Virus record (IMG/VR): IMGVR_UViG_3300038491_000010 | Span: 1 to 33,410 of that record | From: a virus | Length of the DNA: 33,410 nucleotides | Strand: one strand, 5' to 3' | In this document: piece by piece, positions 1,452 through 30,266 of the stretch | Position numbering within the stretch: the stretch's first letter is position 1 | Layout: every line of letters begins with the position of its first letter | The notes under the pieces: model-generated | The model's database searches: none | The model's input: only the letters and a program-made list of their open reading frames with translations | Told to the model about the DNA's origin: nothing | Made by a program: the position numbers and the translations under genes

Positions 1452-2953
1452 GCTCGCTTACTCCATGCAATCTGACGGCTCTTGATCCAGCTCAGCGCCT
1501 CTGGGATTGGCTGTCGGCCTATCTGCTTGAGGCCGTTAGGAGCGCATGAGAAGCACTCAATGTACTTATGGTACGCCCAGCCTTTCTTGTAGTTGTGCTG
1601 ATAGCCGTAATGCAAGAGAGACGAGTACCACTCCTGCTTCTGCTCCTTGGTCAGCGTCTTGCGCCTTGTCTCAGCAGGCGACAGATTCTCTGCCTTGACG
1701 AGCTGTGTGCCGTCATCCTTGAGCGTTGGAGTGCCTAAAGGAAGCTCCCATCCACACTTACAACGAAGTCCTGTGAACGCACCGCTGCACTGCTTGCAGT
1801 TGTGAAGGATAGGCTCTTTAGGCTCAGTCTTGGTTTGCTTCCGCTCTTGGTAGTTTCTATCACCAGAGTGCAGCTCTGAAGGCACGAAAGACTCTGGATA
1901 AGCGCCGAAGTGAGAGAGATTACCAGCGTGGTCAAGGACTACAGCTCGTTCCTTATCAGGATGGATACGCCATATGCGTCCTATTCTTTGAATCCATGTG
2001 GTCAAACTGCGAGTCCTGAATGTGTCTATCAAAATTTCCACACCGGCATCGTCCCAGCCTGTATTCAGGATGCGGCTGTTGATCATCACCTTGTACACGC
2101 CATCCTCAAAGTCTTGATACTTCAGTTCTCTGGTAGCTTGATCGTCATAACCGTCAATGTGGACAGCTATCTCTTGGCCTAGCGTTTGATTGAATCGCTC
2201 TACGAGACTCTTGCTGTAGGCTATTGATGGCGCAAAGCATACAGCTCGCTTGGTCAGGCCATTGGAGTGCTTGACGTAGTTGTCCACAATATCACCAGCC
2301 AGCGTGTCATCTTCCTGCATACGCTTGCCCAAGTCTTCAGCATCATAATCATGATCGCCTGTGTGTGACTTCTTCAGCTTCAGATCAGAAACATCAACAG
2401 TCCTGCCATGATAATAGTCAGTAGGACAAAGCCAGCCAGCGTCTATTAGATCCTGCGGAGTGGTAGTGACTATCAGGTCTTCCCATAAGCCTTCAGAGGC
2501 CATACCACGGCTATAAGGCGTGGCGGTAAGTCCGATGAAGGTAAGGTTGTTGAATCGCCTCATCTGGTCTAGCAAGCCTTTATACATATTGTGCGCCTCA
2601 TCTATGATTGCTATGTCATAGGTGAAGTGGTTGCGCCTGACGGCTGTGGCTGTGCTGACGATCTGAATGTTTTCATTGGGATCGTACTTAGGACTGTCGC
2701 CTTGAAGCACTGAGTAGCTTGCGCCAAGGCTCTTGAAGGTCTCTTCAGTCTGAGTCAAGAGCTTCAGCCTATCGCAAAAGAACGCCACTCTGACTTTTGG
2801 GTTCTTTTTTACGGCCTGCATGGCTATGTAACAGGCGATGATCGTCTTGCCCATGCTACAAGGCGCACTGAGAATTACTCGCTTGTTACCAGCTCTGAGA
2901 CTGTCTCGCAGCGCGTCAATAGCTACTATCTGGTGAGGTCTAAGCTGAATCAT
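1448..2953 (-). CDS. Superfamily 2 DEAH-box helicase with C-terminal zinc ribbon
   Basis: A 501-residue SF2 helicase that would unwind DNA using ATP, probably in replication or recombination. Visible motifs in order are: a Q-like LRPHQ near residue 5, Walker A SAPCSMGKT (29-37), DEAH (118-121), motif III TATP (143-146), ILNTGWDD around 295-302 and motif VI QRIGRIWR (322-329). After the RecA-like pair comes a zinc-ribbon with Cys386, Cys389, Cys398 and Cys400. Some phages without a DnaB-type helicase carry such a protein next to a primase zinc finger, as here. The start overlaps the end of the sigma-like gene by 4 bp. The substrate, branched DNA or a replication fork, cannot be read from the sequence. 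Confidence 0.93.
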   Translation of the reverse strand: MIQLRPHQIVAIDALRDSLRAGNKRVILSAPCSMGKTIIACYIAMQAVKKNPKVRVAFFCDRLKLLTQTEETFKSLGASYSVLQGDSPKYDPNENIQIVSTATAVRRNHFTYDIAIIDEAHNMYKGLLDQMRRFNNLTFIGLTATPYSRGMASEGLWEDLIVTTTPQDLIDAGWLCPTDYYHGRTVDVSDLKLKKSHTGDHDYDAEDLGKRMQEDDTLAGDIVDNYVKHSNGLTKRAVCFAPSIAYSKSLVERFNQTLGQEIAVHIDGYDDQATRELKYQDFEDGVYKVMINSRILNTGWDDAGVEILIDTFRTRSLTTWIQRIGRIWRIHPDKERAVVLDHAGNLSHFGAYPESFVPSELHSGDRNYQERKQTKTEPKEPILHNCKQCSGAFTGLRCKCGWELPLGTPTLKDDGTQLVKAENLSPAETRRKTLTKEQKQEWYSSLLHYGYQHNYKKGWAYHKYIECFSCAPNGLKQIGRQPIPEALSWIKSRQIAWSKRA

Positions 2954-3540
2954 TCCACAAGGTCTCCTGTGTAATAATCCAAACCTGCGTACTCAAGCGT
3001 TTCAGGTTTTCTCATTTTGCGTAGCGCTCTTGCGTGTATTTGACGCACTCTTTCTTTGCTTCTGCCTATTACAGCGCCTATCTCATCAAGAGTATGAGCA
3101 TCACCATCTATTCCAGCTCTAAGTTTAACCACCAAAGCCTCTCGTGAAGTTAAGCCTTCTATAACTTTGTGAACAGCCTCTGCTCGTTGCTCTAATCTAA
3201 TCACTTCCGTAGGATCAACTTCTGTATGTCCGAGATACTGCAATTGCTTAGAATCTGCCTCAATTACTCGCTGGTTATTCAAAATTGGATCATTCATCTG
3301 CTCTTCTGGATACAATTCTGTTGGCATGAGGTTAAAAAAATTACATAGCATTTGAAACTTTAGACTATAATTACCATCTTTACCGAATACACCAACTTTT
3401 AAATTTAAGTATCTGCCAATATCCACTTGCGGTATATCTGACAGCCTAGATAATTCTGCTGCCGATTTAATACCTTTAGACTGCATCGCTTGCCAGAGCA
3501 GGTTGTTTTTTATTTTTATTTCTATTCGATAATCTTTCAT
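2950..3540 (-). CDS. XRE-type HTH fused to sigma-70 region 4: putative transcription regulator
   Basis: A 196-residue two-domain protein. Residues about 12-75 look like a Cro/CI-family helix-turn-helix (KSAAELSRLSDIPQVDIGRY and a following LKFQMLCNFFNL helix). Residues about 129-178 are a clear sigma region 4: LTSREALVVKLRAG, then HTLDEIGAVIGRSKERVRQI with HARALRKMRKP after it, the recognition-helix pattern of primary sigma factors. Regions 1.2, 2 and 3 are absent, so it cannot melt a promoter alone. Region 4 binds the RNA polymerase beta flap, so the protein may tether host polymerase to phage promoters through its XRE domain, or appropriate it as an anti-sigma would. It is early in the leftward unit, a sensible place for a late-gene switch. 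Domains are clear; mechanism is inferred. Confidence 0.88.
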   Translation of the reverse strand: MKDYRIEIKIKNNLLWQAMQSKGIKSAAELSRLSDIPQVDIGRYLNLKVGVFGKDGNYSLKFQMLCNFFNLMPTELYPEEQMNDPILNNQRVIEADSKQLQYLGHTEVDPTEVIRLEQRAEAVHKVIEGLTSREALVVKLRAGIDGDAHTLDEIGAVIGRSKERVRQIHARALRKMRKPETLEYAGLDYYTGDLVE

Positions 3541-4851: not shown

Positions 4852-4884
4852 TCTAGTCTCATTCATTCTTGACGGAATCTTAAA

Positions 4885-25896: not shown

Positions 25897-25925
25897 AATA
25901 AAAAGCTGGGAGCCGAAGCTCCCAG
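25897..25925 (-). terminator. Intrinsic terminator after the major coat gene
   Basis: On the minus strand CTGGGAGC, loop TTCG, GCTCCCAG form a perfect 8-bp stem with a UUCG tetraloop (25906-25925), followed by CTTTTTATT. It lies 12 bp after the coat stop codon and just before the next ATG. Probably partial: it would raise coat and scaffold transcripts over downstream tail genes. Confidence 0.9.
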
Positions 25926-25937
25926 AATCCTACAAGG

Positions 25938-27200
25938 TTACTTTCCAAATCCGCTTCCGGCAAACAGAGGATTGAAGCAGGCGTACGCAGGAAGCAAATC
26001 GAAACGAATCTTCTGCGTGTTAGCGTCACCGTCTGCGTACTTAGATACTCGGATAGACATACCATCGCTAGTAGTAGCAATAGTGTCAGTAGAGTAGAGC
26101 TTAGGCAGCTTCACAGTTCCAAGACCAAACGCTTGTTTGGTGAAGAACATATTAGGCTGGTAGACAGTAGATGCTGCACCAAGGATAGTGACAACAGCGC
26201 CAGAAGCAGGAGCTGCGTCTACATTGTTGTACTGACCGTTAGCCTCAAAGATAGCAGCACCTGAGACAACGATAGTTGCAGCGTTGCCAGAGATAGTGAC
26301 ATCCTCTAGCACAGTGCCTGTCCACGGAACAGCAGCGCCTGCCGCATCAAGGATAATCTCACGAGTAGCTACGTTGAGACGATTAACGCCTGCAATAGTT
26401 ACCTGATCGCCAGCCTTGATAGTACCAGTTCCCAGACCAGCCAGAACAAGAGTCTGCTGCATAGTGTCCTTAGCTGCGAGGTAAGTCGCATTAGGAGCGC
26501 CATTCAGAGTACCTGCACGGTCAGTAGTAGTGCCTGAAGTGTAGCTGCTTAGAGCGTTAGAAGTCAGAGCCATCATGCCACCAAAGTTCTGGCTTATTTG
26601 CGCTTTTTCCCATGCTGTACGGACAAGGCCGTCAGACGCATTCAAGCCGTTCTGAGCCGAAGACAACGCAGTAGTGGTGAATGGGTTCATGAGGTAATAC
26701 TTCTCATCTGCCATTGGGACACCAACAGAGTCCATCATAGCACCAGCACCAGCTACGTCTGACCAAGCATCAACAACAGTTCCACGATCACCATAAGTCA
26801 ACGCTGCGTTCTTACGCATGAATGCGCCAAGGTCTAACTCAAGGTCAGTTACGATGCGGCGAGCCATAGGCTCAAGGATTTGATCAAGTTGGTCTAGCTC
26901 AAGAGCCTCTTCCACGTTGCCCCATTCTGTAGCGGCTGTGAAGTAGTTTTGAACTGTACCAGTTGCTTTACCAGCAATGATGTCTGACTTGTCAGAACCG
27001 CTGATATCACCGCCAGAAGTGCGGATTGTGTTGTAGTCATGCGGACGCTTAAAATCGACATTAGAGCCGCTTGAAGGATTGAACTTACCTGACAACAACT
27101 GAGTGTTGACAGTCTTTGTTACTACACGAGAAGCCTCAAAGGCATCTAGGAATACACGAGCGACTTTTCGTGTGACGTTACTATTGAGATTATTAGCCAT
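25938..27200 (-). CDS. Major capsid protein, P22 coat (gp5)-like
   Basis: A 420-residue coat protein of the P22 gp5 family, an HK97 fold with an inserted I-domain; P22 coat is 430 residues. The N-terminal arm and E-loop region (SGSNVDFKRPHDYNTIRTSG), spine helix (VEEALELDQLDQILEPMARR) and LNAPNATYL linker lead to the insertion at about 250-340 (KAGDQVTIAGVNRLNVATRE, then TGTVLEDVTISGNAATIVVS). The C-terminal strand follows (MSIRVSKYADGDANTQKIRF). Strong Shine-Dalgarno AAGGTG before the ATG. A terminator follows the gene. Scaffold is immediately upstream, as in P22. Confidence 0.93.
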   Translation of the reverse strand: MANNLNSNVTRKVARVFLDAFEASRVVTKTVNTQLLSGKFNPSSGSNVDFKRPHDYNTIRTSGGDISGSDKSDIIAGKATGTVQNYFTAATEWGNVEEALELDQLDQILEPMARRIVTDLELDLGAFMRKNAALTYGDRGTVVDAWSDVAGAGAMMDSVGVPMADEKYYLMNPFTTTALSSAQNGLNASDGLVRTAWEKAQISQNFGGMMALTSNALSSYTSGTTTDRAGTLNGAPNATYLAAKDTMQQTLVLAGLGTGTIKAGDQVTIAGVNRLNVATREIILDAAGAAVPWTGTVLEDVTISGNAATIVVSGAAIFEANGQYNNVDAAPASGAVVTILGAASTVYQPNMFFTKQAFGLGTVKLPKLYSTDTIATTSDGMSIRVSKYADGDANTQKIRFDLLPAYACFNPLFAGSGFGK

Positions 27201-27216
27201 GATTGGATCACCTTAT

Positions 27217-28020
27217 TCATTCAAAAGTTGCTCCTTTAGGGCCACCAGCCTTGGGACTTACCCCAGCGCCTCTTGGCGTGTCTAGTGGATCAGGAGCGGC
27301 ATTAACATTAGGTTTAAGTTTTCTAGCCTTTGGCATAATGGTCTGATCCAAATACAGCAACGCCTGATTAGCAGGCATATTCGCCAGCTTATCTAACTCT
27401 AAGAGATTCTGACCTAAGTACAGAGTTCCAAGACTTCCATCATCTAAATCAATCAAATGACTAGACAGCATTGGGTTTATCCCAAACTGGCCGATCTTGT
27501 TGGCTGCGCTTTGCAGATCCTCAGTCTTTACACCGAGTTTCTTAGAGCGTTCTGCGTAGGTTGCGATCTTCGCATTCTGCTCACTAACTGCCGCTGCTTG
27601 CTGTTGACGCTGTAACTCTAGCTGCTGGCCTTGCATGGCCTGCTGCCTAGCCTCAAACTCTGCTCGCTTGGCAATCGCCTGATCGCGCTGTCGGAGCTGC
27701 TCCTGTATCTCTCTATCCGAGAGACTATAGAAGTCAGGCACGTTCGGCACTTCTGGCGGCTGTTCTTTCGGAAGCCTAGCTTCAAGATCTGCAAGACGCT
27801 TGCGATAGTCCTCGGCCTGACGCTCTGCTTCTCGCGCCTTCCAAGTCTTCTCGCTTATAGCCTTATCAAAGACCTTCTGCTGTTCTTCGTTAAAAACAGG
27901 TCTAGTGGATTGTTCTTGGTCTTCACCAGTATCCGTTGATGAGTCGGAATCAGTTTCCTGATCTACAGTTTCTACGTCTTCAAGCTCATAAGCCTCATCG
28001 ACCATATCTTCTGGTTGCAT
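27217..28020 (-). CDS. Scaffolding protein
   Basis: A 267-residue internal assembly scaffold, the usual gene before coat. The N-terminus is very acidic (MQPEDMVDEAYELEDVETVD, more Asp/Glu to about 45). Residues 55-170 are charged helices likely to form coiled coil (QQKVFDKAISEKTWKAREAE, RDQAIAKRAEFEARQQAMQG). A basic C-terminal region (KARKLKPNVNAAPDPLDTPR to KGATFE) is the kind that contacts coat protein in P22. Length is a little below the P22 scaffold (about 300). No protease motif is evident. A 203-bp regulatory gap precedes it. Confidence 0.87.
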   Translation of the reverse strand: MQPEDMVDEAYELEDVETVDQETDSDSSTDTGEDQEQSTRPVFNEEQQKVFDKAISEKTWKAREAERQAEDYRKRLADLEARLPKEQPPEVPNVPDFYSLSDREIQEQLRQRDQAIAKRAEFEARQQAMQGQQLELQRQQQAAAVSEQNAKIATYAERSKKLGVKTEDLQSAANKIGQFGINPMLSSHLIDLDDGSLGTLYLGQNLLELDKLANMPANQALLYLDQTIMPKARKLKPNVNAAPDPLDTPRGAGVSPKAGGPKGATFE

Positions 28021-28036
28021 CTTATACCTACTGTAA

Positions 28037-28087
28037 TGCCGTCAAATAAACGGTGACGTTCCGTGCCGTCAAGAAAGTGTGACGTTC
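28037..28087 (-). repeat. Two tandem operator-like repeats in the scaffold leader
   Basis: Two copies of TGCCGTCAA, 7-8 variable bases, TGACGTTC (28037-28061 and 28064-28087; plus-strand reading) in direct order with a 27-bp period. Within each copy CGTCA and TGACG are an inverted repeat with a short loop. They lie between a putative promoter and the scaffold start. They may be protein-binding sites or small leader hairpins. Confidence 0.6.
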
Positions 28088-28091
28088 ACTA

Positions 28092-28127
28092 GTGGTCAAA
28101 TATACCACAATTTGGTTAAAAGCAATA
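28092..28127 (-). promoter_or_regulatory. Putative extended -10 promoter and overlapping palindrome before scaffold
   Basis: On the minus strand an extended -10, TGGTATATT (hexamer TATATT at the complement of 28099-28104), lies 17 bp after TATTGC (28122-28127), a poor -35. The palindrome GTGGT/ACCAC with a 7-base middle (28092-28108) covers the -10, as an operator would. It could drive an extra scaffold and coat transcript. The -35 is weak, so it might need an activator such as the XRE-sigma4 protein. Confidence 0.38.
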
Positions 28128-28141
28128 CTTTTCTTAAAATA

Positions 28142-28212
28142 TGGCGGAAGCGGCTACCTAGCAAGGCTCCGATAGATTATCGCCTGTGGAATTGAACCAC
28201 TATTACGCTTCC
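28142..28212 (-). other. tRNA-sized structured element closed by a 7-bp stem, ending GCCA
   Basis: Reading the minus strand from 28212, GGAAGCG pairs perfectly with CGCTTCC (28152-28146), followed by G and CCA (to 28142), 71 bases in all. Within it are a hairpin GTGG, loop TTCAATT, CCAC (28200-28186) and a hairpin CGATA, ATC, TATCG (28182-28170) enclosed by GGC/GCC. The termini look like a tRNA-Ser acceptor. Internal arms do not fit a standard cloverleaf in order, so it is called a structured element, not a tRNA. It sits just after the stop of the 680-residue gene. Confidence 0.5.
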
Positions 28213-28223
28213 ATAAACTTTTG

Positions 28224-30266
28224 TTAAATGTCTTCTTCTCGTAGCGCCGAAACCGCTCCAACCGCTCCAGCGCCAGTCGCTAATGGAACAATGTAAGACT
28301 TGCTTACATCATAAGGATCAAATATTGAAGCGACCTTGCCAAGTTTGGGATGGTCAACAAAATAGCCAGTGTAATTACTATCTGCTATGCGCTTCTCGGA
28401 GCCAGTTGGATCGTTTGGAACCCATAATTTATCAGGGTCTTTCCTAGCGTCATAAAGCAATTCAGGCTCAATTAGAACCTCATTTTGAATGCTGCCTATT
28501 CCGACCTCTCGTCTATACGGATTCTCCGATGCAGGGATACCATAATACGACCTTTTGACGAAATCTGGGCTTCCCGCTCTATTGCGCTCTGCGCTTCTTC
28601 TGGACAATCCTCCTCCATACATTTCTGGATCGACTCGCTCAATGGGTCGGTTGGAACGGTGGATGATTCTGAGTTTTCCATCATCCGTGACTGCTCCTTC
28701 AAGTCCTGTCTCACCACGGCGCAAAGCATCAAAAAATCTTTCTCGCTTATCGTCATTGATTATTAAGCCTGATTCAGATGCGTATCTTGGCATTAAGCCT
28801 GTTTTCTGATCTGCGAATATGGTGTCTTCAACACTAGCGGTGCGGTTTGCTTCAGCATTAGGCCCATAGTTTAAAAAAGAATTTTGTCCTCTGGTCTCTG
28901 ATGCTAATGCTCGCCTTGCTAATGGAGAATACATTCCAGCATGAGATTGGTAGGCGTTTTCTTCGCCCATTGCCCTGAATCCTACACCACCTCTACCATG
29001 TCCCATTGCGTCATGAACAAATCTAAAAATGTCATTATTTAGAGCAGGTTGACCGCCTATATTATAACCTGACTCACCCAATAAAGGATTGTCTTTAGGA
29101 TCAAAATTAACATCGCTTCCAAACCCAGAGCGAGTAGGAAATATTCCTAAGCGTCTATTTTGCTCAAGATCAATCAACGCTTCGTATGGGCTATTTTTAT
29201 AAGGATCAACATCATTGATAAAATAAGGCTCAATTCCTCTATTAATTAAAGACTCATATTGTCCTAAAGTTTCTTCGATCATTGCATCATAAGAGCGTCT
29301 CACTTCAGGGTTTTGAGGATCATGCCTCATCAAGTCATATTCTCTCGCTATCTGTGTAGCTCTTGGCTCATCCACAGAGGCATAACGAACAATTGGCTGA
29401 GAAGGAATGCCAGAGCGTTGCGAATAGTCTTGAGCGGCAGCAGCTACTTCAGGGTTAGGCCCAACACGAACAGGGCCGCGCTCTGGGATTCTAGGTAGAG
29501 ATGGCGCACCTGCTAATGGAGTATCTCCGATAGTTAATGTTGGTAGCTCGTTAAGTTTATCTTGATTCCATATTTCATAATGGGTAGCACCATCTTGATC
29601 TGGGTAATATGCGCCGTCATAACCCATATCTATAAGCTGATCTTTAAGATATTTATCAGTCTCGTCATAACTAGCTAGTTTTAGATTAGACTCATCTAGC
29701 TGACGCTGAATCACACCACCCTTCCCTGCTGCGGCGACTTCTCCTATATCTGGATTTGTGGTAAACCAAGTTGATCCATCTGCTGACTTATCCAAATCAA
29801 AACCGAATTGATCTATTGCTTTTGCCGAATCAGAACTTGTTCCGTGGTATATGTTACGCAAATTACTTCTGGCTTTTTTTGCAATTTTAGAGCTTACATC
29901 GCCAACAACAGGAACAACGCTCATCAAATTGATACCAGTGCCTACCATATCGCCTTGGTTATAAGACCTTGCAGCGTCCTCTAAACCTAATGCGTCTCCA
30001 ACTATAGGAGCAAAATCTATAGCAGAATCAACACCAGAAGCAGCGTTGAGAAGTCCTCGGCGATAACCGCCTTCAATTCCTGTAGCGTCTATTGCGTCAC
30101 GCATAATGTTAGATAAGGCTGAACGGAAAGAAGGTCGCGCAGTCTCCATTGTTTGCACTCTAGGCGCAACTTGCGTTCTGCCCTGTAATGAGTACCTATT
30201 AGACGCAAACTCTTTTACTGCTTCATTAAGAGCCGATGATCCTGCGCTTGGTCTGCGTTCAGCCAT
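28224..30266 (-). CDS. Multidomain toxin-like protein with ADP-ribosyltransferase-like domain, between portal and scaffold
   Basis: A 680-residue protein with no P22 counterpart. Residues 75-133 (DFAPIVGDALGLEDAARSYN to LMSVVPVVGDVSSKIAKKAR) resemble the hydrophobic pretoxin segment of polymorphic toxins. Residues 139-240 fit an ADP-ribosyltransferase-like fold: His141 in IYHGTSSD, aromatic Trp167-Phe168 and Glu231 in HYEIWN. Residues about 290-495 are a second conserved module with His418, His423 (FVHDAMGH), Glu435-Glu436, His442 and RGQNSFLNYG (459-468), seen in phage polyvalent proteins. Residues 531-655 (IIHRSNRPIERVDPEMYGGG, YTGYFVDHPKLGKVASIF) form a third module. A hydrophobic C-terminal helix ends it. 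Overlaps the portal gene by 8 bp. Likely packaged and ejected as effector; domains inferred by eye. Confidence 0.72.
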   Translation of the reverse strand: MAERRPSAGSSALNEAVKEFASNRYSLQGRTQVAPRVQTMETARPSFRSALSNIMRDAIDATGIEGGYRRGLLNAASGVDSAIDFAPIVGDALGLEDAARSYNQGDMVGTGINLMSVVPVVGDVSSKIAKKARSNLRNIYHGTSSDSAKAIDQFGFDLDKSADGSTWFTTNPDIGEVAAAGKGGVIQRQLDESNLKLASYDETDKYLKDQLIDMGYDGAYYPDQDGATHYEIWNQDKLNELPTLTIGDTPLAGAPSLPRIPERGPVRVGPNPEVAAAAQDYSQRSGIPSQPIVRYASVDEPRATQIAREYDLMRHDPQNPEVRRSYDAMIEETLGQYESLINRGIEPYFINDVDPYKNSPYEALIDLEQNRRLGIFPTRSGFGSDVNFDPKDNPLLGESGYNIGGQPALNNDIFRFVHDAMGHGRGGVGFRAMGEENAYQSHAGMYSPLARRALASETRGQNSFLNYGPNAEANRTASVEDTIFADQKTGLMPRYASESGLIINDDKRERFFDALRRGETGLEGAVTDDGKLRIIHRSNRPIERVDPEMYGGGLSRRSAERNRAGSPDFVKRSYYGIPASENPYRREVGIGSIQNEVLIEPELLYDARKDPDKLWVPNDPTGSEKRIADSNYTGYFVDHPKLGKVASIFDPYDVSKSYIVPLATGAGAVGAVSALREEDI

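Follow-up and report, generated by a model that had tools for sequence, protein, structure and literature searches.

A putative structured RNA leader with tandem hairpins upstream of the scaffold and coat genes in marine P22-like phages

The window, i.e., the whole 33,410-base stretch of IMG/VR viral DNA that was analysed, carries head genes of the P22/Sf6 type: coat, scaffold and portal (phrog_156). Scaffold and coat look like a transcription unit of their own, since an intrinsic terminator comes after the coat gene (Table 1). Sf6 likewise has an annotated coat terminator, but in the marine phages the terminator closes a unit with its own promoter. The slot between portal and scaffold is variable, and other genes occupy it in other marine phages. 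With a variable gene between portal and scaffold, a separate scaffold promoter would make sense. In the window the slot holds a gene for a 680-aa protein (28224-30266, minus strand; phrog_3170, function unknown), which has no match in Pfam, PADLOC or PDB.

The original prediction placed a control point dedicated to scaffold and coat expression immediately before the scaffold gene, and its sequence features are present. The extended -10, TGGTATATT, is found on the minus strand at 28107-28099, overlapped by a palindrome, GTGGT-N7-ACCAC (plus strand, 28092-28108). Downstream of these are two direct copies of TGCCGTCAA-N8/7-TGACGTTC, each an inverted repeat, at 28037-28061 and 28064-28087. The dedicated control point agrees with the terminator after coat and with a TG preceding the -10 hexamer in 57/58 leaders from this window and its relatives in which the promoter could be scored (58 of 59 distinct leaders were located, L135 being missed). 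The -35 position reads TTGCTT in 27 of the 58 and TTGATT in 16, and type-C leaders (see below) have no good -35 there. The distance from the -10 to the first stem base is 12-14 nt in all 58. TG is absent before the -10 of Pseudoalteromonas phage H6/1, which has TTGACT-N17-TATCAT instead. It should be noted that a generic promoter scan of the window did not include the scaffold promoter, with its 15-nt spacer, among its predictions. As a conserved site, the -10 palindrome was rejected, being retained in 16/59 leaders.

The twin repeats consist of two copies of a unit of about 27 nt, and TTGAC recurs over the -10 palindrome as well. Read as scaffold mRNA, i.e., on the minus strand, they correspond to two 5-bp hairpins, H1 and H2, both 5′ of the scaffold start codon. 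The order on the minus strand is TTGCTT, the -10, 14 nt, H1, H2, GGCAUUAC, a hairpin at the Shine-Dalgarno sequence (P2) and the ATG. The window has a single instance of twin hairpins defined by identical 5-nt arms, loops of 7-9 nt and a distance of 15-40 nt, and 1/60 dinucleotide-preserving shuffles contains such a pair. Folding energies are ordinary (z-scores of -1.06 to +1.31 in 8 leaders). The minimum-energy fold of the window leader is a nested alternative and not H1 plus H2, which is possible because the arms of the two hairpins are identical in the window.

Table 1. Features of the scaffold-coat region and of the proposed regulator in the window
Feature	Position	Strand	Remarks
-35-like hexamer	28120..28125	minus	TTGCTT; 15-nt spacer to -10
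Extended -10	28099..28107	minus	TGG-TATATT
Inferred transcription start	28091..28093	minus	about 7 nt past -10, from general promoter geometry
Hairpin H1	28067..28084	minus	CGUCA / 8-nt loop / UGACG
Hairpin H2	28040..28058	minus	CGUCA / 9-nt loop / UGACG, then GGCAUUAC
P2, weak 3-bp hairpin around Shine-Dalgarno	28025..28035	minus	UAC-AGUAG-GUA; modest excess over shuffles
Scaffold gene	27217..28020	minus	267 aa; ATG at 28020; phrog_8865, E 1e-19
Coat gene	25938..27200	minus	420 aa; phrog_283, E 1.3e-79; PF11651 P22_CoatProtein
Intrinsic terminator 3′ of coat	25906..25925	minus	8-bp stem, T run
Protein with sigma-70 region 4 domain (PF04545)	2950-3540	minus	in 2/18 records, the window's own included

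Relatives were collected from viral contigs by scans with the coat protein (80 kept, the best of 443) and with scaffold proteins. The resulting 189 loci, in which several contigs are represented more than once, reduce to 59 distinct leaders of 115 nt, which fall into three viral types (A, B and C) plus phage H6/1. Type-A leaders, which accompany window-type and L022-type scaffolds, have two hairpins. Type B has a single hairpin, and type C has two modules, each made of a hairpin with a second, small one after it. Records of Vibrio phage 234P9 (coat identity 39%) and Thalassomonas phage BA3 (29%) were added; contigs resembling BA3 share the layout and, together with BA3, are referred to as type D. 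The scaffolds of L236 and L221, used as queries, found no viral relatives. A type-A leader is also present in one metagenome-assembled gammaproteobacterial contig; a second genome match, labelled Colwellia, ends before the scaffold leader. The layout is retained in the IMG/VR relatives and in three cultured marine phages while the letters of the stems change in matched pairs. The conservation of the repeats in relatives, whose absence the original prediction had named beforehand as part of the grounds for abandoning it, is thus observed for the element as a whole. Conservation is often higher in the leader than in the scaffold gene: in L021 the 64-nt leader is 82% alike and the scaffold DNA 65%. 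The opposite is seen in L089 (leader 75%, scaffold DNA 92%) and, by a small margin, in L081 and L088. In L251 (Vibrio phage 1.211.A, 2645-2700) the scaffold start as annotated falls within the leader, immediately 5′ of the hairpin, and the true scaffold ATG is likely to be at 2699, 54 nt downstream.

In type A the H1 stem is CGUCA/UGACG, CUCCA/UGGAG or CGUCG/CGACG. All five H1 pairs are kept in 17/17 distinct leaders, and three of these pairs have double changes. The H2 stem is constantly CGUCA/UGACG, with the exception of CCUUA/UAAGG in L089. Stem cells are paired in 99.4% of 168 cases in alignment A1 (type A) and in 99.0% of 102 in alignment A2 (types B and C). These counts, like those of A4 and of the scan below, come from related sequences and do not represent independent events. 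Alignment A4, of 21 hand-picked hairpins, has 105/105 stem cells paired and double changes in 4/5 pairs, and its covariation score is 0.819 (shuffles 0.170; no slid register above 0.084); three of the original 24 hairpins (L089 H1, L089 H2 and L187) were omitted on account of their MAFFT register, and all three pair by eye. As the A4 hairpins were picked by eye, an unselected scan is the fairer test. In 46/49 distinct leaders a Watson-Crick stem of 5 bp or more begins 10-16 nt past the -10, whereas 200 mononucleotide shuffles averaged 1.9 such leaders and never exceeded 7. The three missed (L113, L239 and L245) have a misplaced -10 or a G-U pair, as judged by eye. Base pairs of the leader are thus conserved by compensating changes, as expected of a cis-regulatory structured RNA, and conservation extends beyond pairing to the loop and the 3′ flank (GGC, AUUUAC).

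The same comparison bears on the proposal that the repeats are DNA-binding sites, an operator bound by a phage regulator such as the XRE-sigma4 protein. The inverted and direct repeats do adjoin the -10. Operator arms should be alike between sites in one genome, and the regulator should be present where the sites are. The arms of H1 and H2, the same in the window, are unlike each other within most type-A phages, which argues against a shared DNA operator, and the stems change in compensating pairs. The XRE-sigma4 protein is absent from 16/18 records that carry the element. An operator is consequently considered extremely improbable, and the repeats appear to read better as RNA than as operator sites. 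Thus a feature that resembles an operator can prove to be an RNA hairpin upon comparing relatives. A string given as a related site, TTCTTGACGG, is indeed present at 4866 before the ERF gene; however the window has 10 occurrences of its 7-nt core, TTGACGG, so that the link may be due to chance. As a related site it was rejected, other sequence being found before ERF in 4/4 of the closest relatives examined. A different possible hairpin, approximately AUCUCC...GAUGGGAG, was noted by eye in L223-L226, with an early promoter-like site on its upstream side and the start of the ERF gene downstream of it; it is lacking in the window.

The Shine-Dalgarno sequence lies in or beside P2, which is stronger in relatives than in the window, with 5 bp in L089, L112 and L113 and 6 bp in L237. 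Its forms include CCU(U)..(A)AGG in types B and C, UUAC..GUAA in some type A, CGUC-UAGGA-GACG in 234P9 and CGUAUA-GGACUA-UAUACG in BA3. Among 10 sequences from type D, 234P9 and H6/1, double changes are found in 4/6 pairs and 80% of cells are paired. A P2 of at least 3 bp can be drawn in 35/35 distinct tails (mononucleotide-shuffle mean 27.8), and one of at least 4 bp in 22 of 35 (mean 11.2, maximum 21), a modest excess. From these sequences P2 is likely to form in type D and possibly does so in the window. Two other candidates at this site were rejected by eye: a CsrA-like GGA linker is missing from types B and C, and the complementarity for a pseudoknot between loop and Shine-Dalgarno is lost within type A.

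Model R1, whose best match within the window is H2, matches 18/18 records chosen from the loci for length. These positives are expected, because leaders of these types supplied the sequences from which R1 was built. The news of the scan is that other sites are lacking in the 18 records: matches with E <0.02 are in the scaffold leader, as placed by coordinate comparison, and seven weaker matches (E 0.1-1.7) are elsewhere or within the leader. R1 also matches the leader of Vibrio phage 234P9, and that of H6/1, which is itself among its input sequences. Most type-D leaders are missed, so that their shared layout is not taken as common descent. R1 finds nothing in P22, Sf6, APSE-1 or Shewanella ZP9, in the first three of which the gap between portal and scaffold is 13, 13 and 50 nt. 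Rfam 15 gave no covariance-model match for the leader at the gathering threshold, nor any with E up to 10 on 27000-28400, and a report of such a leader was not found among the titles and abstracts listed from open-licence PubMed Central papers.

The interpretation favoured, with reasonable confidence, is that these sequences are a promoter and a structured 5′ leader of the scaffold-coat unit, which would act after transcription on its expression. Action at the RNA level is suggested because the arrangement, in which a promoter is followed by a short run, a hairpin and the ribosome site, is conserved while the letters of the stems change freely. The leader would start from a promoter of the sigma-70 type, with its extended -10, and the first hairpin would form some 5-7 nt downstream of the predicted 5′ end. 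A tandem pair of 5-bp hairpins, in place of which relatives have one or two, would precede a Shine-Dalgarno sequence held in or beside a weak hairpin, and the leader would set the lifetime of the scaffold-coat mRNA and/or ribosome entry. The hairpins would probably tune the amount of capsid protein made. In the preferred detail, the 5′ hairpin would shield the message end from decay, and the conserved loop and flank would be read by a bound factor, perhaps the scaffold protein. Tailed phages need the right ratio of scaffold to coat and the right amount, and an RNA element that is conserved and restricted to the leader of scaffold would offer a short, concrete target for how these are set.

Protection of the message may be the whole function. 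A pure 5′-end stabiliser of the ompA type, in which the hairpin slows RppH and RNase E and has no specific partner, is possible if doubtful. According to a review (PMC3997798), 5′ secondary structure stabilises mRNA because RppH and RNase E require single-stranded 5′ ends. Such a role is consistent with the place of the hairpin, which in all scored leaders lies about 5-7 nt past the inferred start, and with the free variation of the stem letters. The ompA and papA mRNAs of E. coli also have a stem loop close to the 5′ end of the message for an abundant structural protein. However the stems here are of 5-6 bp, in one or two copies, with a conserved loop and flank, and precede a phage gene, and stabilisation is putative. 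A stabiliser would leave the loop, the GGCAUUUAC flank and the tandem copies unexplained, and the short stems are of unremarkable stability.

The conservation of the GGCAUUUAC flank, the loop and the presence of tandem copies point to recognition by a factor, as in the favoured interpretation. The scaffold protein is the natural candidate, since the element stays with scaffold and since the gene 8 scaffold of P22 limits its own synthesis, by control after transcription. The gene is the same as in P22, a member of a related phage family, and how the P22 scaffold limits its own synthesis is an old question on which a scaffold-leader RNA element would also bear. No paper on the P22 autoregulation was found among the open-licence literature searched. 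Autoregulation here, whereby scaffold (or coat) protein would bind the hairpins and repress its own translation, so that scaffold supply is matched to assembly, is rather unlikely. In agreement with it, the element is found only before scaffold in the 18 records, the loop and 3′ flank are conserved beyond pairing, and one to two tandem copies fit an oligomer. Leader type also follows scaffold type: coats 94-95% identical to that of the window come with type-B leaders when the scaffold is of type B (L023, L024, L026, L046). Linkage, however, suffices for this association, type-A leaders are also found before scaffolds 49% identical to the window's, and P22 itself, with only 13 nt between portal and scaffold as in Sf6, is without such a leader. 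An extension of autoregulation, unlikely as judged from the sequences, is that free scaffold, i.e., outside procapsids, binds the tandem hairpins and via P2 shuts off synthesis of both scaffold and coat. The leaders would then be a new RNA leader family and an assembly sensor, kept in marine P22-like phages (Pseudoalteromonas, Vibrio and allied hosts) and lacking in P22 and Sf6.

Two further RNA-level roles should be considered. The nut and put RNAs are the comparison for antitermination, by which the hairpins would carry RNA polymerase past the coat terminator. The position of the hairpins, early in a transcript with a terminator ahead of it beyond coat, would suit this role, but a boxA-like string was not seen by eye and P2, being at the ribosome site, suggests an effect on translation; antitermination is very unlikely. 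Tandem small hairpins with conserved loops upstream of a Shine-Dalgarno hairpin also recall mini-ykkC, which later became guanidine-II and has tandem small hairpins upstream of a gene. A passage in PMC2864571 describes mini-ykkC as having a "small and repetitive hairpin architecture". The loops of the phage leader are different, Rfam is without a match, type B has a single hairpin and the element is tied to one structural gene only; a small-molecule riboswitch of this style is accordingly held to be still more improbable than antitermination.

A cloverleaf-like element of 70 nt (28142-28212, minus strand) lies immediately upstream of the scaffold promoter. It has a 7-bp closing stem, a GUGG-UUCAAUU-CCAC arm and a GCCA end, and was neither recognised as a tRNA by ARAGORN nor matched in Rfam; the window is devoid of tRNA genes. 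The element is found in 27 viral contigs, in each of which the promoter and hairpin are downstream, and in its versions (6 sequences) two base pairs have changes on both sides. By eye, it is present in one and absent in the other of two close relatives, L004 and L258, at one site upstream of scaffold, bordered by similar A-rich strings as if gained or lost whole.
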